In this document: positions 2,126 through 18,876 of the stretch, one piece after another | How positions within the stretch are numbered: the first letter of the stretch is position 1 | Layout of the letters: the number at the start of each line of letters is the position of its first letter | Virus record (IMG/VR): IMGVR_UViG_3300010883_000601 | Location: 1-21,384 of that record | DNA length: 21,384 nucleotides | Reading direction: 5' to 3' (one strand) | Origin: a virus | The notes under the pieces: model-generated | Database searches by the model: none | What the model was told of the DNA's origin: nothing | Seen by the model: the letters and a program-made list of their open reading frames with translations, nothing else | Position numbers and translations under genes: made by a program

Positions 2126-2755
2126 ATGAATAAAAAATTAATAGTAGATTATATACCATTTGAAATAGATAGAAGCACTATAAATGAGTCTCTTTCAAAA
2201 AATAATGGTAGACTTATTGTAAAGGGTGTCCTTCAAAGAGTAAATGCTAAAAATCAAAATGGTAGAATCTACCCAAGAGATGTTTTAGTTAAAGAAGCTA
2301 AAAAGTATGCTCAAGAAAATATAGCAGAACGAAGAGCTCTAGGTGAATTAGACCATCCTGAATCTTCTGTTGTTAACTTAAATAACGCTTCTCATAATAT
2401 ACTTGAAATGCATTGGAAAGGTGATGATTTATTAGGAACTGTAGAAGTTCTTTCAACACCAAGTGGAAACATCTTAAAAGAATTATTTAAAAGTGGTATT
2501 AAATTGGGTATATCATCTCGTGGTTTAGGTTCAGTTGAAGAAGTAAATGAGGGTGATGAAAAAGATGGAGACGAAGAAAATCCAACAGTTAAAGTTAAAG
2601 ATGACTTTGAATTAATTGCATTTGACTTCGTATCAAACCCATCTACACACGGAGCTTTTATGAAACCATCTTCAATGAATGAGAGTACTGGAAATAGAAT
2701 ACAAACAACTTCAAAAGTAGAATCTATAATTAATGATATATTGAGAGGTGAATAA
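2126..2755 (+). CDS. 21: Prohead maturation protease, T4 gp21 family
   Basis: 209 residues, close to T4 gp21 (212). Family signatures are visible: KNQNGRIYPRDVL (42-54), the His-containing GELDHPES (73-80, His77), the Ser-containing GISSRGLGS (128-136, Ser130/131) and FDFVSNPS (166-173). His and Ser are the expected catalytic residues of this serine protease family, which cleaves scaffold, core and capsid proteins after [I/L]-x-E inside the prohead. The N-terminus has I-N-E21|S22, a plausible self-cleavage point. AGGAG precedes the ATG. The linker around residues 139-160 is acidic. This gene sets the interpretation of the [I/L]-x-E leaders in the downstream genes. Confidence 0.93.
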   Translation: MNKKLIVDYIPFEIDRSTINESLSKNNGRLIVKGVLQRVNAKNQNGRIYPRDVLVKEAKKYAQENIAERRALGELDHPESSVVNLNNASHNILEMHWKGDDLLGTVEVLSTPSGNILKELFKSGIKLGISSRGLGSVEEVNEGDEKDGDEENPTVKVKDDFELIAFDFVSNPSTHGAFMKPSSMNESTGNRIQTTSKVESIINDILRGE

Positions 2756-2756
2756 T

Positions 2757-3098
2757 ATGGATTATAAGAAAGTAATGGGGTATAGTAAAGAATTAAAAAA
2801 GAAAGTTGTTAAAGAAATAACTAAACCTCGTGTTAATGAAGTGATTAATTCTATTAAAGAAGAGTTTGGATATAAAAATAAAATAAACGAAACATTACCT
2901 GCACTTGGTAGAGAATATGATAATTATTCAAAAGCTAGAAAATTATATTTAAAATCTGTTATTGATTTAGAAAAAGCTGCTGGTAAAGTTGATAGAACAT
3001 TTGGTAAACAAATACAGAGTGTTTGGAAAAAAACTATAAGTAATAATATGAAGAAGTTTGACGATGCACTTAATGATGTATTGAGTAAATTACAATAA
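2757..3098 (+). CDS. Hypothetical Lys-rich helical protein, possible prohead internal protein
   Basis: 113 residues from the ATG at 2757. A GTG at 2748 would add three residues, but the GAGAGG at 2743-2748 is better spaced for the ATG, which lies just beyond the gp21 stop. The first 45 residues are highly basic and helical and end in I-N-E45|T46, a possible gp21 site. The remainder (YSKARKLYLKSVIDLEKAA) is helical. No family recognised. Immediate coupling to gp21 and the possible cleavage site suggest a packaged internal or core protein. Confidence 0.7.
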   Translation: MDYKKVMGYSKELKKKVVKEITKPRVNEVINSIKEEFGYKNKINETLPALGREYDNYSKARKLYLKSVIDLEKAAGKVDRTFGKQIQSVWKKTISNNMKKFDDALNDVLSKLQ

Positions 3099-3113
3099 TT
3101 AGGAGAAAATAAG

Positions 3114-3452
3114 ATGAAATTAACTAGAGGTAAATTAAAAAAAATGATTGCAGAAGAACTTTTAAAAGAAGGTTTTAAAGATGATGTGAAAGCATTTCAA
3201 TCAGAAGTAGGTCAAGCTGAAGCTGGATGGAAAGAGAAGTATTCTCAATTAGAAGTAAGAGAAAACTCTATGAAATCAGTAAATCGTGTTCATAGAAGTT
3301 TAAAAGCTGTAGTTGAAGGATTTAAAAAAATGCCAATGGAAGAAACTTTAGGTATGGTAGGTAAAGGGCATAGTAAGAAATTTCAAAATGCAATTAGTGT
3401 TCTTGAAGGTATACTTGAAGATACAGGTGGCTGGATAAAAGAGAATCACTAA
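3114..3452 (+). CDS. Candidate capsid-targeted internal protein
   Basis: 112 residues. The leader MKLTRGKLKKMIAEELLKEG is an amphipathic Lys/Leu helix ending in L-K-E19|G20, the gp21 cleavage signature. This design parallels the T4 internal-protein capsid-targeting sequence, a short N-terminal helix removed by gp21. The mature part is helical, possibly coiled-coil, with a Gly-rich patch near 80. AGGAG lies 8-10 bases before the ATG. It overlaps the next gene by one base. Function of the mature protein unknown. Confidence 0.75.
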   Translation: MKLTRGKLKKMIAEELLKEGFKDDVKAFQSEVGQAEAGWKEKYSQLEVRENSMKSVNRVHRSLKAVVEGFKKMPMEETLGMVGKGHSKKFQNAISVLEGILEDTGGWIKENH

Positions 3453-4516
3453 TGACACCCAAAGAACGCAAAATATTAAAGGAAATTGTTAAAAAACAAA
3501 TTTTAAAAGAGACTAATACACCTGATAAATTTTCAAAGTTAATTACAGAGAATTACAAAAATTGGGAAATAGGTAAAGTTATGACTTTTAAAGACAATCC
3601 TCCTTTTAAAACACCTAAACAGATAAGAGAAGAAAATCTTACAGAAGCTCCACAAAAAGGTAAGCATGTAGTATATTATGAAAAGGGTTCAAGTGGAAAG
3701 AAAGTTCTTGATGTTAAACCAAATTATAAGAGTGCTGCACTAGCAATGAATAAACATATGAATACTGGTAAATATGAGACTGTTGGTATTCAACATTGGG
3801 AATCTTGGAATAAAGTTGAATCACCAAAGATTAAAGAAGGAAAACTTACAGAAGCTAATTCTTCTAAATATATACAGGCTCATAATAAAATGTATAAAGC
3901 TTATGAGAACTTTGCTAGAGAAGTTATGAATTTAGCTAAAACTTCATCTAAATTAGATGGTGATAAAGTAGATGAAAAAATCATTTTAAAGAATTTCAAA
4001 AAGGATGTTATTCCATTTATATCTTTAATGAAAGGTTGGTTAAAGGGTAAAATGAGAGAATCTGTGAATGAAGGAAAACTTAAAGAAGGTAAGTTTTCAA
4101 AAGAACATATACATATGTTGAAATTGGCGTATGGAAGTCTTGATAAAATGAACCCATCTTCACCTACCTATAAGAAATTTATTAAGTTTTTAGAGAAGCT
4201 ACCTAAAGACCAATTGAAACAATTGGCGAATGCTGATATAAAATTTGTATCAATGTTAGCAAAGAATAGAATGAAAGAAGGAAAACTTACAGAAGCTAAA
4301 GAAACAATATTTGATGTTGCAGCTAAAGTAATGCAAGATTCACAGATGTATAATTACAAAAGTAGAAAAGGTATGGTAAAGGTAGATATGCAAACGGCAA
4401 ATCTATTAACAAAAGTATGGAAAAAAGTAAGTCCTAAAATGAAAAAACATTTAGCAGGAATGGGTGAAGCCAATCCAGCTGGGTTAGTTCAAACTTTATG
4501 GGCTGCAGCTAAATAG
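3452..4516 (+). CDS. Candidate internal-protein polyprotein with repeated gp21 sites
   Basis: 354 residues. The leader ends in L-K-E20|T21. Near-identical linkers then recur: NLTE65|A66, KEGKLTE134|A135, NEGKLKE212|G213 and KEGKLTE281|A282. Each ends in [I/L]-x-E then Ala or Gly, the signature cut by T4 gp21. Cutting at all of them would release modules of about 45, 69, 78, 69 and 73 residues. The modules differ in sequence: the second is Tyr/Lys-rich and beta-like (KGKHVVYYEKGSSGKK), the others are helical. The linkers are conserved at DNA level (25 bp identical in two). This fits a head polyprotein processed during maturation. Module functions are unknown and cleavage is predicted, not shown. 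Confidence 0.8.
   Translation: MTPKERKILKEIVKKQILKETNTPDKFSKLITENYKNWEIGKVMTFKDNPPFKTPKQIREENLTEAPQKGKHVVYYEKGSSGKKVLDVKPNYKSAALAMNKHMNTGKYETVGIQHWESWNKVESPKIKEGKLTEANSSKYIQAHNKMYKAYENFAREVMNLAKTSSKLDGDKVDEKIILKNFKKDVIPFISLMKGWLKGKMRESVNEGKLKEGKFSKEHIHMLKLAYGSLDKMNPSSPTYKKFIKFLEKLPKDQLKQLANADIKFVSMLAKNRMKEGKLTEAKETIFDVAAKVMQDSQMYNYKSRKGMVKVDMQTANLLTKVWKKVSPKMKKHLAGMGEANPAGLVQTLWAAAK
3833..3857. repeat. 25-bp linker repeat, copy 1
   Basis: In-frame 25-bp sequence encoding KEGKLTEA, identical at every base to 4274-4298 in the same gene. A diverged copy lies at about 4067-4090 and a partial one at about 3629-3649. Each marks a predicted protease linker between modules. Confidence 0.95.
4274..4298. 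repeat. 25-bp linker repeat, copy 2
   Basis: Second exact copy of the 3833-3857 sequence, again in frame and encoding KEGKLTEA at residues 275-282. Identity at synonymous positions while the flanking modules differ points to recent duplication or recombination at the linkers. Confidence 0.95.
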
Positions 4517-4525
4517 GAGATAGAA

Positions 4526-4846
4526 ATGATTAATATGAAAAAATTATTAAAAGAGGGATTTGCTTGGGAACGAAAGTTTGGTGAATCTCTTCCAACAGTA
4601 GCAGAAGTACAAAAAAAATATGAAGATAAATTAAAAAACGAAGCTCCTGACCAATTAGAAAGAGAAAAAGTTCCTGCAAATGTAAATAGATTTATGACTA
4701 AATTTATCGATACACTTAAAGGTGCAAAACTTACAAGAAATAAACAAAAAGCAATTCTCTTTAAAGTAGTCAAAGCTTTAAATATATCACCAAAAGAATT
4801 AGCTATGTATACACAAAGAGTTAAAAAAGGCTTGGAAAAAAGATGA
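4526..4846 (+). CDS. Candidate capsid-targeted internal protein
   Basis: 106 residues. A short leader MINMKKLLKE10|G11 carries the L-x-E|G signature of gp21 substrates. The C-terminal two thirds (NVNRFMTKFIDTLKG to the end) is a compact basic helical region. AGGAG at 4516-4520 supports the first ATG; a second ATG at 4535 would also keep the leader. Stop and next start overlap (ATGATGA). No family recognised beyond the leader. Confidence 0.72.
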   Translation: MINMKKLLKEGFAWERKFGESLPTVAEVQKKYEDKLKNEAPDQLEREKVPANVNRFMTKFIDTLKGAKLTRNKQKAILFKVVKALNISPKELAMYTQRVKKGLEKR

Positions 4847-5139
4847 TGAAATTGAAATCTTTATTATTAACAGAAAAAAGGAAAATGGGTGATAAACAAC
4901 TAATGTCGATTAAACAAATGACAGATAGAAACAATCACACAGAAAACAGAAAAAAATTATCAAGTTTGATGGGAAATGATAAGTTAGCTCAATTCTATAA
5001 AGCTATGGCTACACTTAATTTAGTATTTAATGGTACTAACGCTGAAATGAATAAACTTAATCAAAAGATGGAAAAAGAATTTTATAAACAGATAAAAAAA
5101 TCTTATGCAAATGCGGAAGAGATTATAGGATTATTTTAA
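4843..5139 (+). CDS. Candidate capsid-targeted internal protein
   Basis: 98 residues. Two adjacent ATGs (4843 and 4846) overlap the previous stop; the second gives MKLKSLLLTE, closely matching the leader of the next gene (MKLKDLLVE) and so is perhaps the true start. Predicted gp21 cut is L-T-E|K. The remainder is a helical region rich in Lys, Asn and Met. Its stop shares one base with the next ATG (TAATG). Function unknown. Confidence 0.72.
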   Translation: MMKLKSLLLTEKRKMGDKQLMSIKQMTDRNNHTENRKKLSSLMGNDKLAQFYKAMATLNLVFNGTNAEMNKLNQKMEKEFYKQIKKSYANAEEIIGLF

Positions 5140-5486
5140 TGAAACTTAAAGATTTATTAGTAGAAGGTGTGACAAGTAAATACGCTGCTATATATCAAAT
5201 GAAAGAAGAGATGAAGAGTGGGAAGTTCGACCCCAAGAATCCGACAGTTAGTGTTAATGGTCTTGGAGTATATAATTTAAAATTATTAGAAAAAGTAATT
5301 AAGAGAGATTTAGGTAAAGCTGTAAATAATTTAGGGTATGAAAGTGGTATTAATAATTTAATGTATCACTTATATAAAGATAAATCACCATTAGGTTCAA
5401 AAATAAAAGGATTACACGAGGTATACCAACAGATGAATACATCACAATATAAGAGAGCTGTAACGATGTATAAGCGGAGAAAATAA
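5139..5486 (+). CDS. Candidate capsid-targeted internal protein
   Basis: 115 residues. The leader MKLKDLLVE9|G10 matches the gp21 signature and is nearly the same as that of the gene before it. The rest is a basic helical domain with Gly turns (VNGLGVYNLKLLEKVIKRDL) and a strongly basic C-terminus (MYKRRK). Start overlaps the upstream stop by one base. Packaged DNA-associated protein is a reasonable inference; no family recognised. Confidence 0.73.
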   Translation: MKLKDLLVEGVTSKYAAIYQMKEEMKSGKFDPKNPTVSVNGLGVYNLKLLEKVIKRDLGKAVNNLGYESGINNLMYHLYKDKSPLGSKIKGLHEVYQQMNTSQYKRAVTMYKRRK

Positions 5487-6137
5487 ATGGCTAAAGAAAA
5501 TTTTAATGCAAAAAATAAAAGTGGTAAAAAGGGTACATATAGTATGAATGAACGCAAGAATGCAGCTCGACCTATATCTCGTACACCACAAAATAGACAA
5601 ACCCCTGGTGGCTTAATTAATAAACCTTTTCGTTGGTCTTGGTTAGATGATGGTGGTATGAGTAAAGTGAAAGGTGCATTTTGGATGGGTAATCCAAATT
5701 CAAGTATGTTTCAGCAATGTGATTGTAGATGCAGCTGCGATGTACCAACAGAAGCATTAACAATGCCCGATGGTACTCTATGTCCTACTTCATCACCATA
5801 TGGTGGATATAAATTTGTTCAAGAACCTCATCCTATCGGACATATGGATGATTGGAATTATGGATGGGGAATGCAGCATGGACTTGACAATTGTGATAAT
5901 ATAACATCTGGTGGCACTGCAAATAGATATTGTCATTTTGAACAACTTGGAGTAAATGATGGATTCTCAATTGATTTTAATGGTGTAGAAACTTCTGATG
6001 AATGTTCAGATTTATGTGGGAATCATTGTTTAAATAACTCTGATGAATGTGGAGAGCTGTATGGTTTATGTGGAGCTCCAACTGCCCCTGGACCACGACC
6101 AAGAGGTAGAAATGGTGGAACAGGTGGACAATATTGA
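5487..6137 (+). CDS. Cys-rich protein with MAKENF leader
   Basis: 216 residues. The N-terminus MAKENFNAKNKSGKK is basic and shared with small proteins at 16806 and 17134, and resembled by 16650. The rest is rich in Gly, Asp, Asn, Trp and Tyr with 12 cysteines, including clusters CDCRCSC (about 78-84), DECSDLCGNHC and DECGELYGLC. The C-terminus is Pro/Arg/Gly-rich. Clustered Cys suggest metal binding or disulfides in a secreted or virion-exposed protein. It carries no gp21-type leader, so it interrupts the run of candidate internal proteins. Starts immediately after the previous stop. Role unknown. Confidence 0.72.
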   Translation: MAKENFNAKNKSGKKGTYSMNERKNAARPISRTPQNRQTPGGLINKPFRWSWLDDGGMSKVKGAFWMGNPNSSMFQQCDCRCSCDVPTEALTMPDGTLCPTSSPYGGYKFVQEPHPIGHMDDWNYGWGMQHGLDNCDNITSGGTANRYCHFEQLGVNDGFSIDFNGVETSDECSDLCGNHCLNNSDECGELYGLCGAPTAPGPRPRGRNGGTGGQY

Positions 6138-6796
6138 AAATAACCGAATTACAGATAAGAGAAATTATTAAAAAAGTTATTTCGGAAAAAAGAGATTACA
6201 AAGATGAATACAAGAAATTTCAATCATCTACTAAATCTAAAAAGTACCGAGCAGAATTAAATGCCTATAATAGAAAAAAAGGTACTTATGGTAATGGTGA
6301 TGGTTTAGATGCATCACATAAGAATGGTAAAATTGTAGGGTTTGAAGAGCAATCGAAGAATAGAGGAAGAGCTGAAAAGAGTAGATTAAAGAAAGAAGGG
6401 AAACTTGATGAACTTGGTGGGTTTAGTATAGATGGTAGTACTGATTTTAATGATACTTATATAGCTCCAAAGAGAGATACATCAAAAGGTGATATGAAAA
6501 CATTTTATCAAAAGTTTTCATCTCCTGAAGCTAAAAAAGTAGTAGATGGTAAGTTAGCTGACTATGTTAAGGGGTTAAGAAAATTAGAAGGTAAGTTGGT
6601 TAAAGATTGGATGACAGCTGCTAAATCAGGTAATATTGACTTTTTTGATTTAATGAGAGGATTCAATACTGGTGATGTTCAAAGAGCACATAAATTTGAA
6701 ATAGATTTTTTAACAGGTGTACTACAAAGAGATAAAATACAAGACAGATTTAGAAGTTACTTCAAAGGTAAAAAAGGTAAACATAGAGGAAAATAA
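6134..6796 (+). CDS. Candidate internal protein with HNH-like segment
   Basis: 220 residues from a TTG start that overlaps the previous stop (TTGA), with AGGTGGA at 6122-6127 as ribosome site. The leader ends V-I-S-E18|K19. Residues 21-86 (RDYKDEYKKFQ ... YGNGDGLDASHKNG ... SKNRGRAEKSR) have the D-x-S-H ... N-R spacing reminiscent of HNH endonucleases: D59, H62, N64, N76, R77. A KKEGKLDE93 linker like that of the 3452-4516 protein follows. The C-terminal part (94-220) is helical and very basic at the end. The HNH reading is tentative because the full metal-binding set is not obvious. A protein cut into two packaged parts would fit. Confidence 0.72.
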   Translation: MKITELQIREIIKKVISEKRDYKDEYKKFQSSTKSKKYRAELNAYNRKKGTYGNGDGLDASHKNGKIVGFEEQSKNRGRAEKSRLKKEGKLDELGGFSIDGSTDFNDTYIAPKRDTSKGDMKTFYQKFSSPEAKKVVDGKLADYVKGLRKLEGKLVKDWMTAAKSGNIDFFDLMRGFNTGDVQRAHKFEIDFLTGVLQRDKIQDRFRSYFKGKKGKHRGK

Positions 6797-7083
6797 TGGC
6801 TATTACTAACAAAGAAATATGTGAACGATTGCAATGTATTGAAAATAGACTACCAAATGGTGAACTTTTAGAAATACACGAAAATGTCAAAGAAATTAAA
6901 GAAATTCTTTTAGACCCCGAAGATGGTGTTATTGTCCGTGTTAATAAAAACACATATTGGAGAAAAGAAATCGACTCAGACGAATTTAAAGCATTATTAA
7001 GATGGAAACAAGGTGTAACACACGCGATGTGGGTTGCTTACACAGCATTAATAGGAATTATAGTAAAAATAATATTTTTTTAA
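6796..7083 (+). CDS. Small membrane protein, XhlA-like architecture
   Basis: 95 residues. An N-terminal heptad-like helix (about 4-38, IENRLPNGELLEIHENVKEI) and a GVIVRVNKNTYWRK segment are followed by one C-terminal hydrophobic span (about 76-94) ending in FF. Cytoplasmic coiled coil plus C-terminal anchor is the layout of XhlA-type proteins that help holins. It lacks the gp21-type leader. It shares one base with the upstream stop. A lysis role is possible but not demonstrated; membrane anchoring is the safe statement. Confidence 0.7.
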   Translation: MAITNKEICERLQCIENRLPNGELLEIHENVKEIKEILLDPEDGVIVRVNKNTYWRKEIDSDEFKALLRWKQGVTHAMWVAYTALIGIIVKIIFF

Positions 7084-7110
7084 TACTTATAGTATATAGG
7101 AGACAATAAA

Positions 7111-7677
7111 ATGGCAAAACTAAAATCACTTTTAGAAGATGTTCTAAAAGAAACAAGAAGAAATAAAAGACACGAAACTATCGAGAGTGTAAGAGGGTAT
7201 GGTGGATTAGGTAGTGGATTATATAAAAATAATGTACTTGAAGTTGCATCAAAATTATCTGAAATAGCAGATGCTGCACATTCTCATATAATCGGTGAAA
7301 ATGATGAATGGTTTGATAAGATAACCGTTAATAAAAATATGAAATCACTAAAAGGTAGTGTTTCAGAATTTAAAAAAGCTGCTCTTGAATCACATAGATT
7401 AAATCAAAGAATGACTGCTTTATATGAAGATATGGGTGGAGTTCTGAATCGTTATTATGACATAGATGAAGGTCTACTTGAAGGTGACAAAGGTGATATG
7501 GATAACGATGGTAAAGACGAACCAGATGATGAAGAATATATGGATAACAAAGACAAAGCTATTAAAAAAGCAATGGGTGAGACTTACGCTAATATATCAA
7601 AAAGACCAACTAAAAGACTAAAAGATATTAATAGTGTAGTTGGTATTGGTGTTGTAGGTAATTCATTTAAGAAATAG
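7111..7677 (+). CDS. Candidate capsid-targeted protein with Ca-loop-like motif
   Basis: 188 residues. Leader MAKLKSLLEDVLKE14|T15 matches the gp21 signature. A central helical domain (about 65-118, EWFDKITVNKNMKSLKG ... LYEDMGGVLNRYYDI) resembles a region I remember from uncharacterised marine T4-like proteins. Another possible site L-L-E124|G125 precedes D129-M-D131-N-D133-G-K-D136, the DxDxDG pattern of EF-hand or dockerin calcium loops, and an acidic patch. The C-terminal 30 residues are basic. AGGAG precedes the ATG. Probably packaged and cut in two; function unknown. Confidence 0.76.
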   Translation: MAKLKSLLEDVLKETRRNKRHETIESVRGYGGLGSGLYKNNVLEVASKLSEIADAAHSHIIGENDEWFDKITVNKNMKSLKGSVSEFKKAALESHRLNQRMTALYEDMGGVLNRYYDIDEGLLEGDKGDMDNDGKDEPDDEEYMDNKDKAIKKAMGETYANISKRPTKRLKDINSVVGIGVVGNSFKK

Positions 7678-8028
7678 ATGATAGAACTTTATCATCATCT
7701 AGAACATTTGATGATGTACAGTTTATTATTATGGCAATGTACATTGAGTGTTTGGTTAATCTTAAAGTGGATTAACAAAAATTGGAAGACAAAAAAGACA
7801 TTTTCTGTTATGTCTCCAACAGAGAGTAAACAACCAATTATAAATATAGATGGTTCTTCTATTAGTGGAATGTCTACCACTAAAAAGAATATGGGACCAA
7901 TCGATGTAGATATACAAAAAAATATAGTAGTAGGTGATGTTGATAAATCAGATTTAAGTAAATCGACTGATATAACAAAAGGTAAAGTTAAAACACAGAA
8001 GGATAAGCTGAGGAGTTTAAGAAAATGA
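7678..8028 (+). CDS. Membrane-anchored protein with DVDIQ C-terminal module
   Basis: 116 residues. One hydrophobic span at about 10-31 (LMMYSLLLWQCTLSVWLILK) is followed by a polar, Ser/Thr/Lys-rich tail. The tail IDVDIQKNIVVGDVDKS ... KVKTQKDKLRSLRK matches the C-terminus of the soluble protein at 17599 (IEVDIQREIAIGNVDIS ... KVNTSKLKKLKALRK). The ATG directly follows the previous stop. The shared tail suggests a common binding partner, with this copy tethered to the membrane. Function unknown. Confidence 0.68.
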   Translation: MIELYHHLEHLMMYSLLLWQCTLSVWLILKWINKNWKTKKTFSVMSPTESKQPIINIDGSSISGMSTTKKNMGPIDVDIQKNIVVGDVDKSDLSKSTDITKGKVKTQKDKLRSLRK

Positions 8029-8231
8029 AAAAATCATTTAAAGAAACATTAAAAAACATAGGTGGTGGTCATCTACTTAAAGAAGCTTCTGGTAAAGTTT
8101 CGGTAGGATTTTCAAATACAATGGGTGCCTTATATGTAAGTAAAGGTAATCAAAAGACGGTTGAATTAAAGAAAGCTGATGTTGAAGAGATTATAAAGCA
8201 GTATAAAAAATTTAAAAGTAAAATGGACTAA
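8025..8231 (+). CDS. Small candidate internal protein
   Basis: 68 residues. The N-terminus MKKSFKETLKNIGGGHLLKE20|A21 ends in the gp21 signature followed by Ala, the favoured T4 context. The short mature part (about 48 residues) has a beta-like half (GKVSVGFSNTMGALYVSKG) and a Lys-rich helix. It overlaps both neighbours (ATGA at the start, TAATG at the end). No family recognised. Confidence 0.7.
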   Translation: MKKSFKETLKNIGGGHLLKEASGKVSVGFSNTMGALYVSKGNQKTVELKKADVEEIIKQYKKFKSKMD

Positions 8232-8515
8232 TGAATATAAGTAAAGAGGATATATTGGAAATTATTAAAGAGGAAATTCAAAAAATTAATGAAGGTCCAA
8301 GAGATTTTATCCATCATAGTCAAGCAAAGTTTTTACAAGTACCTAAAAATGATATAAATAAAGTAGGTAAACTACTTAAAAAATTTAAATGGCAGGTTGA
8401 AGTTGATACAAAACCTGTTAGAGTACCAGGGCATATTAAAGTAACTACAACAAAAAAAATCTATAATAATGTTCTTGAAATTTTAATGAAAAATAATATA
8501 AAAGTAAGAGGTTAA
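8231..8515 (+). CDS. Small candidate internal protein
   Basis: 94 residues. The leader MNISKEDILEIIKEEIQKIN ends at E21|G22, with I-N-E|G as gp21 signature. The mature part is about 73 residues, basic, with alternating beta and helix (VGKLLKKFKWQVEVDTKPV ... IKVTTTKKIYNNVLEILMK) suggesting a small folded alpha/beta domain. Start shares one base with the preceding stop. Function unknown. Confidence 0.72.
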   Translation: MNISKEDILEIIKEEIQKINEGPRDFIHHSQAKFLQVPKNDINKVGKLLKKFKWQVEVDTKPVRVPGHIKVTTTKKIYNNVLEILMKNNIKVRG

Positions 8516-8518
8516 TAT

Positions 8519-9553
8519 ATGGCTAAGGGTTTAGATTGTGGGACATCGTTTTATATAGCAGCTACAGACAAGAGTATAAAAAAACAAAGAAATGCGTTTT
8601 TAACAGTAGATGGTGAAGCTGCACAAGTAAAACGAATGTTAAAAAGACAGAGTATTCCATTTGTGGAAAAAGCAGGTAAAGTTCACATTGTTGGACAACA
8701 CGCATTTAATTATGCACAGATATTTAATACGACAGAATTAAAAAGACCTATGAAAAGTGGTCTTCTTAATCCTCAAGAACGAGATGCATTACCAGTACTA
8801 AATGCAATAGTTGGTGAATTATTAGGTAAAGCTAAAAAAGATGAAGTGTGTGTTTATTGTATACCTTCAAAACCAATTGACCAAGACAGGGAAGTTTCGT
8901 ATCACGAAGATGTATTAAGGACTATTATAGGTGGATATGGATATGATGTTAAAGTTATTGAAGAAGCAGTTGCAATAGGTTATGAGGGACTTGTAGATAA
9001 TAATCTTACAGGTATAGCTATTTCAATGGGAGCTGGTATGTGTAACATTGCTGTTATGTATGCTGGCATGTCAGCATTATCATTTTCAGTAGCTAGAGGT
9101 GGTGACTGGATTGATATTAATAGTGCAAACGATTGTGGTGTATCAACATCAAAAGTAACAGCAGTTAAAGAAAATTCAAATCAATTAGATTTGACACAGA
9201 GTAAAATACAAGATATTTATGAAGAGGGAACTGCAGAACAAAATATAGTTAATGCTATTCGTTCTTATTATGGAGCTCTTATAAATTATCTTTTAACAAA
9301 TTTAAAAAATCAATTTGAAAATACAGATAACATGCCAAACTTTCCAGATAAGATACCAATTGTTATTGGTGGTGGAACAGCATTAGTAAAAGGATTTTTA
9401 GATGTATTTCACGAGCAATTTGATGCTGAGAAATTTCCAATACCAATTAGTGACATAGTATTAATAGAAGACGCTCATACAGCAGTCTCAAGAGGCTGTT
9501 TAAGTGAAGCACAACTCATAGAGGAGGAACAAAGTGAGAAAGACAACAGTTAA
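8519..9553 (+). CDS. Actin/MreB/Hsp70-fold ATPase
   Basis: 344 residues, the usual size of prokaryotic actins. Fold motifs in order: phosphate-1 GLDCGTS (4-10), a strand-helix region with CVYCIPSKP (111-119), connect-1-like EEAVAIGYEGL (148-158), phosphate-2-like SMGAGMCNIAV (169-179), ARGGDWID (192-199) and adenosine motif IVIGGGTALVKGF (281-293). In phosphate-2 the usual Asp of DxGxGT is Ser169, so nucleotide chemistry may differ. No leader or membrane segment. It lies between the internal-protein island and the scaffold gene. Filament formation, host-cell positioning or chaperone-like head assembly are possible; only the fold is well supported. Its end overlaps the next gene by 20 bp. Confidence 0.85.
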   Translation: MAKGLDCGTSFYIAATDKSIKKQRNAFLTVDGEAAQVKRMLKRQSIPFVEKAGKVHIVGQHAFNYAQIFNTTELKRPMKSGLLNPQERDALPVLNAIVGELLGKAKKDEVCVYCIPSKPIDQDREVSYHEDVLRTIIGGYGYDVKVIEEAVAIGYEGLVDNNLTGIAISMGAGMCNIAVMYAGMSALSFSVARGGDWIDINSANDCGVSTSKVTAVKENSNQLDLTQSKIQDIYEEGTAEQNIVNAIRSYYGALINYLLTNLKNQFENTDNMPNFPDKIPIVIGGGTALVKGFLDVFHEQFDAEKFPIPISDIVLIEDAHTAVSRGCLSEAQLIEEEQSEKDNS

Positions 9554-13811: not shown

Positions 13812-15011
13812 ATGAGTAAATTTCAATATGTGTATGAAGACCCATCAATTGCAGACAATGCGTGTGTAAATGATTCGACACCCTTTGGTGTTTATGATAA
13901 TGATGCAACATTCTGTTCAGAGAGTATAAGTGTATGTAAATTTGTAGCCCGAAGATTAGGTTTCCCTACTATGCAATTAGAATATGGTAGTGGTTCAATA
14001 TACGCTATGTTTGAAGAGTCTGTATCAGAATATTCTCAACAGATAAATCACTATAATATGAAAAATTGGTTATGGGAACATTATGGTAGTAGTAAACTTG
14101 CTGCTACTGGTTCTATGTTGTCGGGTTCAGGCTCATTAACACATAATCCTGTTACTCCACATATGGGAATGTCTGTACATTTATCTCAACAATATGGTCA
14201 AGAAGTAGGCCTTGGTGGTGATGTAACAATGTATACAGGCTCATTAGTTTTAACAGGAAGTAAACAAGTATACGATTTTAATACAGCAGACATACCTGAA
14301 TCACATACAGGAAGTAGAATTGAAATTTCAAGAGTATTCAATGAAGGTCCGTCAGCAATAACAAGATTTTATGACCCATATGCTGGTTCTTATGACCAAA
14401 GAAGTATGTTAGATGGATTTGGATTTGGTAATTCATCTCCAGCAGTAGAGTTTGTATTAAGACCAGTATCACACGATATAGCAAGAGCACAAGCAATTGA
14501 AACAAGTGATAAAATAAGAAAATCAGCATACTCATTTGAATTGATAAATAATCAAATAAGATTATTTCCTAGACCAGACCCAGCAGATAATGGAGATAGA
14601 ATTTGGTTTAATTACCAATTGAGAGAAGATAAAAGAGGTGCAAACACAGCTGAGTACTTATCAGGTACAACATCAGACCCATCTAATGCACCATATAACT
14701 TTATAGAATATACTAATATAAATGCACCTGGTAGACAATGGATAAGAAAGTATACTTTAGCATTATCAAAAGAATTATTAGGGATAATAAGAAGTAAGTA
14801 TCAAACTATGCCAATACCTAATGGTGAAGTAACAATGGATGGTGAAGGTTTGAAAGCTGAGGGTAGAGAAGAAAAACAACTACTTTTAGATGAATTAAAA
14901 GAATTTTTAGAGTCAGTAACTCTCACAGAAAGAGCAAGAGCTGAACAGGAACAAGCAGAATCTACACAGGTAGTTTTAAATAAATCACCTTTAAAAATAT
15001 ATTTAGGTTAA
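13812..15011 (+). CDS. Probable neck/connector protein, gp13-like
   Basis: 399 residues (T4 gp13: 309). The N-terminal helix segment VCKFVARRLGFPTMQLEYGS with a following I-x-x-x-x-E-x-x-x-x-Y pattern resembles head-completion adaptors of T4-like phages (RRLG-x-P...IE). A Gly/Ser-rich insertion (about 92-160) follows. The C-terminal RKYTLALSKELLGIIRSKYQ ... PIPNGEVTMDGEGLKAEGRE and a long helix resemble connector or adaptor C-termini. GGAGAAAA precedes the ATG. Recognition is by motif and by place between capsid and gp14/gp15-like genes; the exact T4 counterpart is uncertain. Confidence 0.7.
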   Translation: MSKFQYVYEDPSIADNACVNDSTPFGVYDNDATFCSESISVCKFVARRLGFPTMQLEYGSGSIYAMFEESVSEYSQQINHYNMKNWLWEHYGSSKLAATGSMLSGSGSLTHNPVTPHMGMSVHLSQQYGQEVGLGGDVTMYTGSLVLTGSKQVYDFNTADIPESHTGSRIEISRVFNEGPSAITRFYDPYAGSYDQRSMLDGFGFGNSSPAVEFVLRPVSHDIARAQAIETSDKIRKSAYSFELINNQIRLFPRPDPADNGDRIWFNYQLREDKRGANTAEYLSGTTSDPSNAPYNFIEYTNINAPGRQWIRKYTLALSKELLGIIRSKYQTMPIPNGEVTMDGEGLKAEGREEKQLLLDELKEFLESVTLTERARAEQEQAESTQVVLNKSPLKIYLG

Positions 15012-15023
15012 TAGGAGAAAAAA

Positions 15024-15887
15024 ATGGCTTACAATCGTAATAGAAAAATGAATGCTGGTAGAAAGGCATCGTCAAGACCAAATTTCAGGAAAGCAGCACC
15101 GTCTCAAACCCCAAGAATGCAACAAATGGGTAAAACGAATAGAGTACAAACAGTAGATTATATGGGAGCAACATTTAGAGTTTCAATGAACCCAATGAGA
15201 CCGGGTAGTGGTACTTTTACTTTAGTAAGAGGTAATTTGAATGGTGTAAAAATTCCAGGAGGTGTCAAACCAGGTAATGAATATATGGGATGGCCTGGAG
15301 AAAAACCAGATGATGGTGGTAATGAATCGGATTGTTTTAGTAGAAATTCTATTGTTAAATTAGAAAATGGAAATAATATTTCAATAAGTAAATTAAAAAT
15401 TGGTGATAAAGTAAAAACTATTAATAAGAATGGTAAAACAGAGTATTCAGAAGTTTATGCTTGGTTCCATAAATCGTATGAAGATTATCGTGATGATTAT
15501 ATAAATGTTAAAACTGAAGATAATACTTTAACAATAACACCGCAACATAGAATATTTGTAAATGATGTAGATAGTCCAGCTTCAGATATAAAAGTTGGTG
15601 ATACTATAAGTGGTCAGAAAGTTACAAGTGTAGATAGTATTACTGCATATGGTAAATATGCACCAGCAACAAAAAATGGATTTATTGTCGTTGATGGTAT
15701 AAATTGTTCTTGTTATGCATTTTATAGTCATAACTTCTGTCATGCAATGGTAAATGTATTATTAAAACCTCTTGTTAAACTTGTTCCTTCATTAGGTTCT
15801 TGGTTAGGTAAAGATGGTATTAATAAATTTTGTGCACCATTTATGAAAGATAGAACAATTGGAAGATTAATAACTAAATTAGGATAA
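15024..15887 (+). CDS. Hedgehog-type Hint domain protein
   Basis: 287 residues. Residues 1-103 are a basic tail plus a Gly/Pro-rich region; a Hint domain follows from Cys104. Motifs in order: C104-F-S at the start, IVKLENGNNISISKLKIGDK (110-129), T172-P-Q-H175 (the TxxH catalytic pair), IKVGDTISG (189-197), YAPATKNGFIVVDG (212-225) and C228-S-C230-Y-A (228-232), with His240 after it. The YAP-x-T...G...VVDG...SCYA pattern is that of hedgehog autoprocessing domains rather than inteins. Such domains rearrange the peptide bond before the first Cys to a thioester and release or esterify the N-terminal part. A 47-residue tail follows. It sits between neck genes; AGGAG precedes the ATG. Activity and purpose are inferred. 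Confidence 0.85.
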   Translation: MAYNRNRKMNAGRKASSRPNFRKAAPSQTPRMQQMGKTNRVQTVDYMGATFRVSMNPMRPGSGTFTLVRGNLNGVKIPGGVKPGNEYMGWPGEKPDDGGNESDCFSRNSIVKLENGNNISISKLKIGDKVKTINKNGKTEYSEVYAWFHKSYEDYRDDYINVKTEDNTLTITPQHRIFVNDVDSPASDIKVGDTISGQKVTSVDSITAYGKYAPATKNGFIVVDGINCSCYAFYSHNFCHAMVNVLLKPLVKLVPSLGSWLGKDGINKFCAPFMKDRTIGRLITKLG

Positions 15888-16805: not shown

Positions 16806-16825
16806 ATGGCAAAAGAAAATTTTAA
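16804..16825. repeat. 22-bp repeat at MAKENF gene start, copy 1
   Basis: Exact 22-bp match to 17132-17153, covering the start codon and leader codons. A third copy with one mismatch lies at 5485-5506. Shows that the leader spread by duplication. Confidence 0.9.
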
Positions 16826-17123
16826 TACAAACCCTAAAAAAAATACAAACTTACACGATAGAAGAAATATTGGGACTCATAAGAACAAAGGGCAGTGGCA
16901 TTTTGATAGTACTGGTCCTGGAATGGGGAAGAAAAAATATACTCAACAAGAAATTGTAAACTTATATTATAACTCAACTAAATTCCAAACTCAGTTTGGT
17001 AACCCACCATCTCATAATGTTGATGGTTTCTGGTTATACTTATGTTGTAAAATAACAGGTTCGTATGGTGGTGAATCAGCACAATCTTCTTGTTGGGGTG
17101 ATTGCGGTGGTTCAACCAATTAG
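16806..17123 (+). CDS. MAKENF-leader small protein with Cys cluster
   Basis: 105 residues: basic leader MAKENFNTNPKKN, then Lys/His-rich sequence, a helical KKYTQQEIVNLYYNSTKF segment and a Cys-bearing end (YLCCK and SSCWGDCGG, four Cys). AGGAG in the end of the upstream gene serves as ribosome site. Related to 17134 and 5487 by leader and Cys-rich end. Likely a small virion or envelope-exposed protein; function unknown. Confidence 0.7.
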   Translation: MAKENFNTNPKKNTNLHDRRNIGTHKNKGQWHFDSTGPGMGKKKYTQQEIVNLYYNSTKFQTQFGNPPSHNVDGFWLYLCCKITGSYGGESAQSSCWGDCGGSTN

Positions 17124-17131
17124 GAGATAAC

Positions 17132-17153
17132 AAATGGCAAAAGAAAATTTTAA
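17132..17153. repeat. 22-bp repeat at MAKENF gene start, copy 2
   Basis: Exact copy of 16804-16825 spanning the start codon of the next gene. Confidence 0.9.
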
Positions 17154-17325
17154 AGTAAAACAGGGAAAAAAACATCATAGTAAAGCTCAACCTAAATTAA
17201 AAAATAACCCAGGTGGTGATGATGAGACTTATGGTTGGTTTTGTTGTGCTTTTAATTTGTGGTGTTGTAATGATGGTAGAAACCATCCAAGAGAATATCC
17301 TAATAAACCTAATCCACCTTATTAG
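17134..17325 (+). CDS. MAKENF-leader mini-protein with CC...CC motif
   Basis: 63 residues: basic leader MAKENFKVKQGKKHHSK, then WFCCAFNLWCCNDG (two Cys pairs) and a Pro/Asn-rich end. AGGAG is 9-13 bases before the ATG. The paired Cys suggest disulfide or metal binding. The first 8 codons are nearly identical in DNA to those of the preceding gene. Function unknown. Confidence 0.68.
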   Translation: MAKENFKVKQGKKHHSKAQPKLKNNPGGDDETYGWFCCAFNLWCCNDGRNHPREYPNKPNPPY

Positions 17326-17334
17326 AGAGATAAA

Positions 17335-17589
17335 ATGAGAAAAAAATCAGAAAATCTAAAGGTAAGACCTAGTAATAAGAAAATGCCTCAAATGAGTGCA
17401 GATGAATTTAAACATTACAATGGTGATAATTTTCGTGGGTGTTCTTGTCAGAGGATAAGTTGGTGGACACATCATAGAGAATGTCAAGGCACCAATTGTC
17501 AAAATGGTGGAACATCTTGTTGGTTTGAATCAACTTGTATTGAAAGACCAGATGACAATAAAGACCGTAGAAATGATTCATACTTATAG
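17335..17589 (+). CDS. Small Cys-rich protein
   Basis: 84 residues with a basic N-terminus (MRKKSENLKVRPSNKK) and six Cys within about 37 residues (GCSCQ, REC, TNC, TSC, STC), with His-His and Trp-Trp between them. Could be a small zinc-binding or disulfide knot domain. It is flanked on both sides by the same junction (tagagagataaaatg), as is the next gene's start. Same general design as the MAKENF proteins but with a different leader. Confidence 0.68.
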   Translation: MRKKSENLKVRPSNKKMPQMSADEFKHYNGDNFRGCSCQRISWWTHHRECQGTNCQNGGTSCWFESTCIERPDDNKDRRNDSYL

Positions 17590-18006: not shown

Positions 18007-18876
18007 ATGGCAGTTAAACCAATAACAAACCCAAATCCTAAACAAGAAGTCAATAGAGGTAAAGAGGTTTCATTTAGACCTATTGATAGTCGTATGAGTG
18101 GAAACACGCAACGAGTATTACCTGCAGGAAAAGGTGGAACTAAAAATCACTCGATACATTTAAAAGATATAGATATGTCAATGATGAGTCATATAAAAAA
18201 TGTTATGAATATCCATGTTACTGAAGCAGGAGAGAAAATTAAAGTTCCTATATACTATGGTAATGAAGAGAGGTGGGCTGCTATTAAACGAAGAGGTGCA
18301 ATAAGAGATAAACAAGGTTCATTAATTTTACCATTAATGACTTTTAGAAGAACAAATGTAGTATTTACAGATTCTATGCCACAATCGTTTGACCATGATG
18401 TTAGAGGTGAGCATATACAAGTAGTTCGTTCAAAACAATATTCCCCAAAAAATAGATATTCTAAATTTTCAGTACAAAACGGAATAAAACCAGTTACACA
18501 AAGTATAGTAACAGGCATGCCAGATTTTATAGATTGTACTTATGAATTTTTTATATGGACAAGTTATACTGAACAGATGAACATTATTTTAGAATCATTT
18601 ATAGAACACGAAAACACTTATTGGGGTGATGAGCATAATTATAGATTTGTTGCTGCTCTTGAGGGTGGTTTTAACGATGTTACAGAACAAGAATTAGAAA
18701 GAAATAGAGTAGTATCATCTAACTTTAGTATTATGTTAAAGGGTTATGTACTACCAGAAATGAATAGTAGTATATATAGTGGTAAGTCTTTTGAGGCATT
18801 TAAAACACAATCGCCTTCTAAAGTTGTATTCGGATATGAGGGTGACGCTACAAATAAACAAGTTTTAGAAGATTAA
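18007..18876 (+). CDS. 15: Tail completion / sheath stabiliser, T4 gp15-like
   Basis: 289 residues (T4 gp15: 272). Matches by eye to gp15 in order: EKIKVPIYYGNEERW (T4 FIRVPITYASKEHF), ILPLMTFRRTNVVF (T4 LPRINLHLVDF), QYSPKNRYSKF, TYEFFIWTSYTEQMNIILES (T4 YELSIFTRYEDDMFQIVEQ), YRFVAALEGGFNDVTEQELE, RNRVVSSNFSIMLKGYVLPE (T4 RRRIEWSLTFEVNGWMYPP). gp15 caps the tail tube and sheath and joins the tail to the neck. Location before the sheath gene agrees. A basic 45-residue N-terminal extension is not seen in T4. Confidence 0.85.
   Translation: MAVKPITNPNPKQEVNRGKEVSFRPIDSRMSGNTQRVLPAGKGGTKNHSIHLKDIDMSMMSHIKNVMNIHVTEAGEKIKVPIYYGNEERWAAIKRRGAIRDKQGSLILPLMTFRRTNVVFTDSMPQSFDHDVRGEHIQVVRSKQYSPKNRYSKFSVQNGIKPVTQSIVTGMPDFIDCTYEFFIWTSYTEQMNIILESFIEHENTYWGDEHNYRFVAALEGGFNDVTEQELERNRVVSSNFSIMLKGYVLPEMNSSIYSGKSFEAFKTQSPSKVVFGYEGDATNKQVLED

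Follow-up and report, generated by a model that had tools for sequence, protein, structure and literature searches.

In animal Hedgehog proteins, a self-cutting domain brings about release and the attachment of cholesterol. A gene with a resembling domain lies in a 21,384-nucleotide stretch of virus DNA (IMG/VR record IMGVR_UViG_3300010883_000601, positions 1 to 21,384; hereafter the window), which raises two questions: whether the domain is of the Hedgehog (Hog) type or a more ordinary member of the Hint superfamily, and what it might do in a phage.

Gene layout

The gene (15024..15887, + strand, like its parts and its two neighbouring genes given below) starts with ATG behind an upstream AGGAGA and encodes 287 residues, made up of a basic N-part, a Hint domain (PF01079, E=5.2e-28) and a helical tail. 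The N-part (residues 1-103, 15024..15332) has no domain match, and no Pfam match to the Hedge signalling domain was found in residues 1-103; it could be aligned with its counterparts on two related contigs, L002 and L003. Its first 40 residues contain 11 Lys or Arg and no Asp or Glu, which agrees with the basic N-terminal region described in the initial annotation. A short conserved stretch from T43 to G80 (TVDYMGATFRVSMNPMRPGSGTF..) follows, and then a variable linker ending in D103. The Hint core (residues 104-232, 15333..15719) runs from the first cysteine, C1, to the SCYA motif and is delimited by PF01079, by a Drosophila Hedgehog Hint match over residues 104-232 and by Foldseek matches to 6tyy and 1at0. 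The motifs pointed out earlier are all in frame in ORF 15024-15887: C104, TPQH 172-175, IKVGD 189-193, YAPATKNGFIVVDG at 212-225 and CSCYA 228-232, the last followed by histidines (H236 and H240), as had been noted. The codon of C104 (15333-15335) coincides with the start that had been proposed for the unit. The proposed end at 15749 comes too early, however: the PF01079 match reaches residue 263, and the helical tail continues to the stop at 15887. This C-terminal tail (residues 233-287, 15720..15884) comprises 55 residues with four helices predicted in the AlphaFold model, the first of them amphipathic (hydrophobic moment 0.55), and occupies the place of the sterol/adduct recognition region.

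Assignment to the Hog branch

In a Pfam search, the domain matched the Hedgehog Hint module PF01079 with 98.5 bits over profile positions 10-188 of 213, compared with a cut-off of 29.7 bits. When the profile was run on whole genomes with bacterial intein-like domains (BILs) or inteins, these scored at most 39 bits and none extended past position 141; the BILs of sister phages scored 17.5-21.6 bits. Coverage of positions 142-188, where motif J lies and the tail begins, sets the phage domain apart from inteins and BILs. By sequence, the PDB search ranked three Drosophila Hedgehog entries highest (6tyy, 6td6 and 1at0; E 2e-14 to 6e-13) and put human Shh in fourth place. In a maximum-likelihood tree of 32 Hint domains (LG+G4, unrooted), which contains only two eukaryotic Hogs, one of them partial, the three phage Hogs group with fly and human Hedgehog and are separated from all BILs by a long branch with support of 99.9/100. 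In the alignment, SCYA stands where BILs have HN. Splicing is not expected, because the HN and the subsequent C/S/T end are absent. CSCYA 228-232 is present in all three phage copies.

Profile score and coverage, the tree and the missing splice junction together support a Hedgehog/Hog-type Hint domain rather than a splicing intein, as had been claimed; a splicing intein or BIL is rejected on junction, scores and tree. Two further Hint families were considered and rejected, since VWA-Vint (24.7 bits, cut-off 27) and Hint_2 (17.8 bits, cut-off 28.4) fell short of their cut-offs; each matched residues 104-181 only. An assembly chimera was rejected because the same domain adjoins phage genes on two other IMG/VR contigs.

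Active site and the residue preceding the scissile bond

Alignment to PDB sequences shows that C104, T172, H175 and C230 correspond to C258, T326, H329 and C400 of Drosophila Hedgehog. T172 and H175 belong to TPQH (15537..15548), the TxxH motif of block B, and C230 lies in CSCYA (15705..15719), the Hog motif J. C1, TxxH and the SCYA cysteine are identical in all three phage copies. The earlier statement that all key residues are intact holds for these four positions but not for the general base: H149 (15468..15470) aligns, in a stretch ungapped to 6tyy and 1at0, with D303 (D46 in Hint numbering), and a histidine is found there in 3/3 phage copies. Nematode Hogs probably also have a histidine at the general base position. 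In Hedgehog, D303 is the general base that activates cholesterol; the D303H mutant retains structure and activity, and in Drosophila Hh it reacts far better with some non-native sterols and has a wider substrate range (PMC9163320). By analogy with this active mutant, the exchange of Asp for His would not in itself amount to a loss. Since it lacks both the Hedge domain and the general base Asp, we file the phage protein as a Hog-domain protein and not as a Hedgehog protein.

The predicted scissile junction is D103/C104 (15330..15335), where both the Asp at position -1 and C1 are invariant in the three phage copies. The -1 Asp is shared despite differing linkers. In inteins, an Asp at -1 leads to faster and often premature N-terminal cleavage (PMC8891592, PMC11842431). 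Because the three copies are related and their linkers are rich in Asp, the shared residue could also be a chance match.

Predicted structure

AlphaFold was given residues 103-287 together with 20 phage and bacterial Hint sequences; with three sequences only, the pLDDT was 42. The resulting Hint core is partly confident, with some blocks at pLDDT 82-94 and others at 61-67, and the tail helices (232-253, 255-260, 263-275 and 278-286) are predicted with low to moderate confidence. The top Foldseek matches were Drosophila Hedgehog structures (6tyy, the D46H mutant, E 1.6e-7 and 30% identity; 1at0, E 2.0e-7 and 29% identity), followed by inteins at E about 1e-4. Global superposition was poor (rmsd about 12 Å), the model being of low global accuracy, and VIA-align placed several inteins slightly above Hedgehog (Z 9.3 versus 7.8). 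Given these similar Z scores and the poor superposition, the fold supports 'Hint', and it is the sequence that supports 'Hog'. The tail takes the position of the helix-loop-helix with which Hedgehog recognises sterols; its H240, P249 and K252 are spaced unlike the HPR motif of human Shh, which consists of H374, P379 and R381 (PMC7906309). Motif K, of which HPR is the Hedgehog form, is variable or missing in some eukaryotic Hogs (PMC2362128).

Relatives and probable modular exchange

Protein, alignment and motif scans of IMG/VR returned two further Hog copies only, L002 and L003/L007, both on related phage contigs; all three known phage copies, including that of the window, thus come from metagenome contigs. 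Two motif patterns, with which the fly protein too would agree at the protein level, returned only L002 and L007 in IMG/VR. On L002 (4.5 kb), the gene has the same layout as in the window and directly precedes g17599 and gp15. On L003/L007 (11 kb), it occupies the same slot but carries an extra intein-like Hint between the N-part and the Hog domain: the 477-residue product (L003:2783-4216, identical to L007) has tandem Hints, the first intein-like (C123 to HN/S) and the second Hog. The first matches intein_Cterm (2e-10) and Intein_splicing (43.7 bits, above the cut-off), with Asn in place of the block B His. No Hog was found in 50,697 INPHARED phage records, no Hog relative in genome contigs, and PLSDB plasmids gave two weak, intein-like Hint matches and no Hog. 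Likewise, PF01079 revealed no Hog in 1,468 sampled prokaryote genomes from five phyla (395 Bacteroidota, 292 Cyanobacteria, 299 Bacillota, 237 Omnitrophota and 245 Marinimicrobia), where the sole match was intein-like (39 bits, ending at position 135). For this profile, the phage records acted as positive controls; the absences apply to those collections and samples. We found no phage Hog in the literature; subscription journals and database annotations were outside the scope of that search, and earlier notice is possible.

The three copies share about 80% amino-acid identity in the Hint domain for every pair. Within the domain, conservation is lowest in the tail (48-69% between pairs), and the N-parts are only 28-42% identical. 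Between the window and L002, the backbone protein gp15 is 46% identical with a dS of 0.93, compared with 0.42 for the Hint; for the pair of window and L003, the Hint has a dS of 0.27 and four neighbouring genes have values of 0.57-0.75. In blastn comparisons of the window with L007 and with L002, similarity begins at the identical base, 15330, which is the start of the -1 Asp codon. The N-parts before this boundary are 34-42% identical in these comparisons. The Hint domain thus appears to travel between phages as a unit, most simply by recombination that carries the -1 Asp along and places both behind diverging N-parts. Its dN/dS of 0.30-0.46 indicates selection for function.

Genomic surroundings

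The DNA that hosts the gene is that of a marine T4-like phage. In the window, a prohead protease (S77), an acidic scaffold-like protein, the major capsid protein gp23, a gp13-like protein, a gp15-like protein and the tail sheath follow in this order. The upstream neighbour of the Hog gene (13812..15011) encodes a gp13-like head-completion/head-tail adaptor protein (phrog_211, E=5e-9), annotated as 'putative head completion protein' in Flavobacterium phage immuto; downstream lies a T4 gp15-like tail sheath stabiliser (18007..18876; PF16724, E=1.5e-6). The location in a neck operon that had been proposed therefore stands insofar as the gene lies between gp13-like and gp15-like genes, but synteny points to an accessory slot rather than a core neck gene. 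The order gp13, g16177, g17599, gp15, g18932, sheath is largely kept in some 50 related IMG/VR contigs, the gaps being filled by changing accessory genes. These encode Cys-rich proteins with Arg/Lys tails, coiled-coil or LamG-like, LRR-dockerin and endonuclease-like proteins (several named by eye), as well as small proteins with capsid-targeting-like starts. Most related phages lack the Hog gene in this interval, and its product has no PHROG or Pfam match to a neck protein such as T4 gp14; it counts among the accessory genes of the gp13-gp15 region. The basic tail of the N-part resembles those of the neighbouring accessory proteins in composition only, and any role of the N-part in the virion or on its surface is guesswork based on where the gene lies. 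Judged by gp13 and the capsid protein, the closest cultured phages are Microcystis phage Mel-JY01 and the Flavobacterium immuto phages, neither of which has a match to the Hog gene.

Several other features of these phages were observed. Cys-rich accessory proteins of sister phages (L027:10843-12009 and L031:6861-8093) carry BIL-type Hints ending in THN/K, whose nearest non-phage counterpart is found at the end of a dockerin-bearing ORF on a Neomarinimicrobiota MAG contig, L091 (1,307 residues, measured from the start to the contig end). A 933-residue protein with leucine-rich repeats and a dockerin (L008:7540-10341) lies directly after gp15 and is a possible hint at the host group; relatives were found in 5/100 Marinimicrobia and 1/99 Bacteroidota genomes. 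In the window, an actin-fold protein of the Volactin family (8519-9553; PF25216, E=1e-73) is encoded between the prohead protease and the major capsid protein, and a protein with tandem Lys-Pro repeats (KKKPTP; 862-1551) upstream of the protease. The region 2748-8515 contains many small ORFs with amphipathic starts of the form M-K-x-L-x-x-L-L-x-E (for example at 3114, 4526, 4843, 5139 and 7111), which resemble the T4 capsid-targeting signals cut by the gp21-type protease (2126-2755 in the window); these ORFs may encode packaged internal proteins. Similar starts are seen in 'MIKLKDLL.E' proteins in the gp13-gp15 interval of L011, L023 and L030. Small basic-tailed, Cys-containing proteins are encoded at 5487-6137, 16806-17123, 17134-17325 and 17335-17589, three of them starting with MAKENF.

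Proposed chemistry

With no splice junction present, N-terminal self-cleavage at D103/C104 is the likely chemistry, as judged from the conserved residues. We consider it probable that the product is an accessory protein of the phage with a Hog-type autoprocessing domain as its C-terminal half, that the thioester is resolved externally and that the N-part is released. Once the domain has folded, C104 would attack the D103-C104 bond, helped by T172 and H175, and an N-S acyl shift would generate a thioester at this junction. The thioester would then be resolved from outside and without splicing, freeing the basic 103-residue N-part. Release would occur most simply by hydrolysis, favoured by the -1 Asp, with water giving the conservative outcome; alternatively, a nucleophile could be presented by the tail and H149, in which case the outcome would be joining, as in Hedgehog. 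Among related phages, the Hint would be exchanged as a module behind different N-parts.

That the domain acts as a ligase in the full Hedgehog sense is a reading we regard as doubtful: the tail would bind a host lipid, small alcohol or amine, H149 would activate it for an attack on the thioester, and the N-part would gain a covalent C-terminal anchor or label. It accords with motif J and with an amphipathic helical tail where Hedgehog recognises sterols, and with the finding that in Drosophila Hh a His at the base position preserves ligation and admits a broader range of substrates (PMC9163320). Against it, the spacing of the HPR motif is not kept, the tail is less conserved than any other part of the domain and the -1 Asp favours plain release. 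Sterols are, as a rule, absent from bacteria, which also counts against this reading. Also unlikely in our judgement is the broader proposal that, through Hedgehog-like chemistry and a Hog module exchanged between different N-parts, the phage attaches either another of its proteins or a non-protein adduct (host lipid, polyol or amine) to the C terminus of an accessory virion protein.

A decayed, inactive Hint retained solely as a structural domain might be suspected from the replaced general base Asp and the fast divergence of the N-part, but it is improbable given the invariance of C1, TxxH and the SCYA cysteine, the purifying selection on the Hint and its better conservation relative to tail and N-part. 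It is very improbable that a neighbouring virion protein, through a lysine or another amine, attacks the thioester, or an anhydride formed from it with the side chain of D103, and so becomes cross-linked to the N-part: the -1 Asp in every copy and the numerous basic accessory proteins of this operon would suit such a protein-protein ligation, but the chemistry is proposed by analogy only. Finally, a splicing intein or type A BIL with a chance likeness to Hog is hardly tenable, since the shared Hint core, a weak intein_Nterm match (21.3 bits, cut-off 24.5) and the BIL/intein-type Hints of sister phages (the first Hint of L003 and those of L027 and L031) are outweighed by SCYA in place of the C-terminal HN junction and by scores and a tree that separate it from BILs.

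If autoprocessing by the Hog-type domain is the correct reading, the phage may process or modify its own protein by Hedgehog chemistry. The presence in a T4-like phage of a Hog domain with intact nucleophile and TxxH motif opens two questions to testing: the function of such a domain in a setting that normally lacks sterols, and whether bacterial viruses were a route of transfer for Hog domains or their place of origin. Given its natural His at the general base, the domain may also be a compact self-cleaver whose substrate range differs. Joining of an adduct or protein by the phage Hog, if true, would be Hedgehog-type ligation outside eukaryotes.

Comparison with known systems

By sequence, the locus is a phage-borne Hog domain on a new partner, of a type previously described from eukaryotes, with a His at the base, a -1 Asp, a new N-part and a modular character. 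Type A BILs and inteins (including the first Hint of L003 and those of L027 and L031) share with it the Hint core, C1 and an occurrence in accessory proteins that occupy the same gene slots in sister phages; unlike the phage Hog, they end in HN, have neither SCYA nor the tail, form a separate clade and score at most 39 bits against PF01079. The Hog domains of Drosophila Hh (1AT0; D46H, 6TYY) and human Shh resemble the phage domain in the Hint fold, C1, TxxH and the SCYA cysteine, in the YxxxAP..xGxIxV pattern before motif J and in the helical tail after it. In contrast to them, the phage Hog has His instead of Asp at the general base and Asp instead of Gly at -1, lacks the insert between block B and the second GD motif, and has a shorter tail without HPR spacing; it is encoded by a phage, behind an N-part that has neither a Hedge domain nor, by eye, a signal peptide. 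Hog domains occur in animals and many protist groups and have been placed early in eukaryotic evolution, and the same survey describes another Hint group from bacteria (PMC2362128). Compared by published description, the Hedge-less Hog proteins (nematode warthog and groundhog, choanoflagellate Hoglet, fungal GIN1 and protist Hogs; PMC2362128) are eukaryotic, unlike the phage copy, but likewise carry the Hog domain behind an unrelated N-part, and their modular re-use with new N termini parallels that in the phage.
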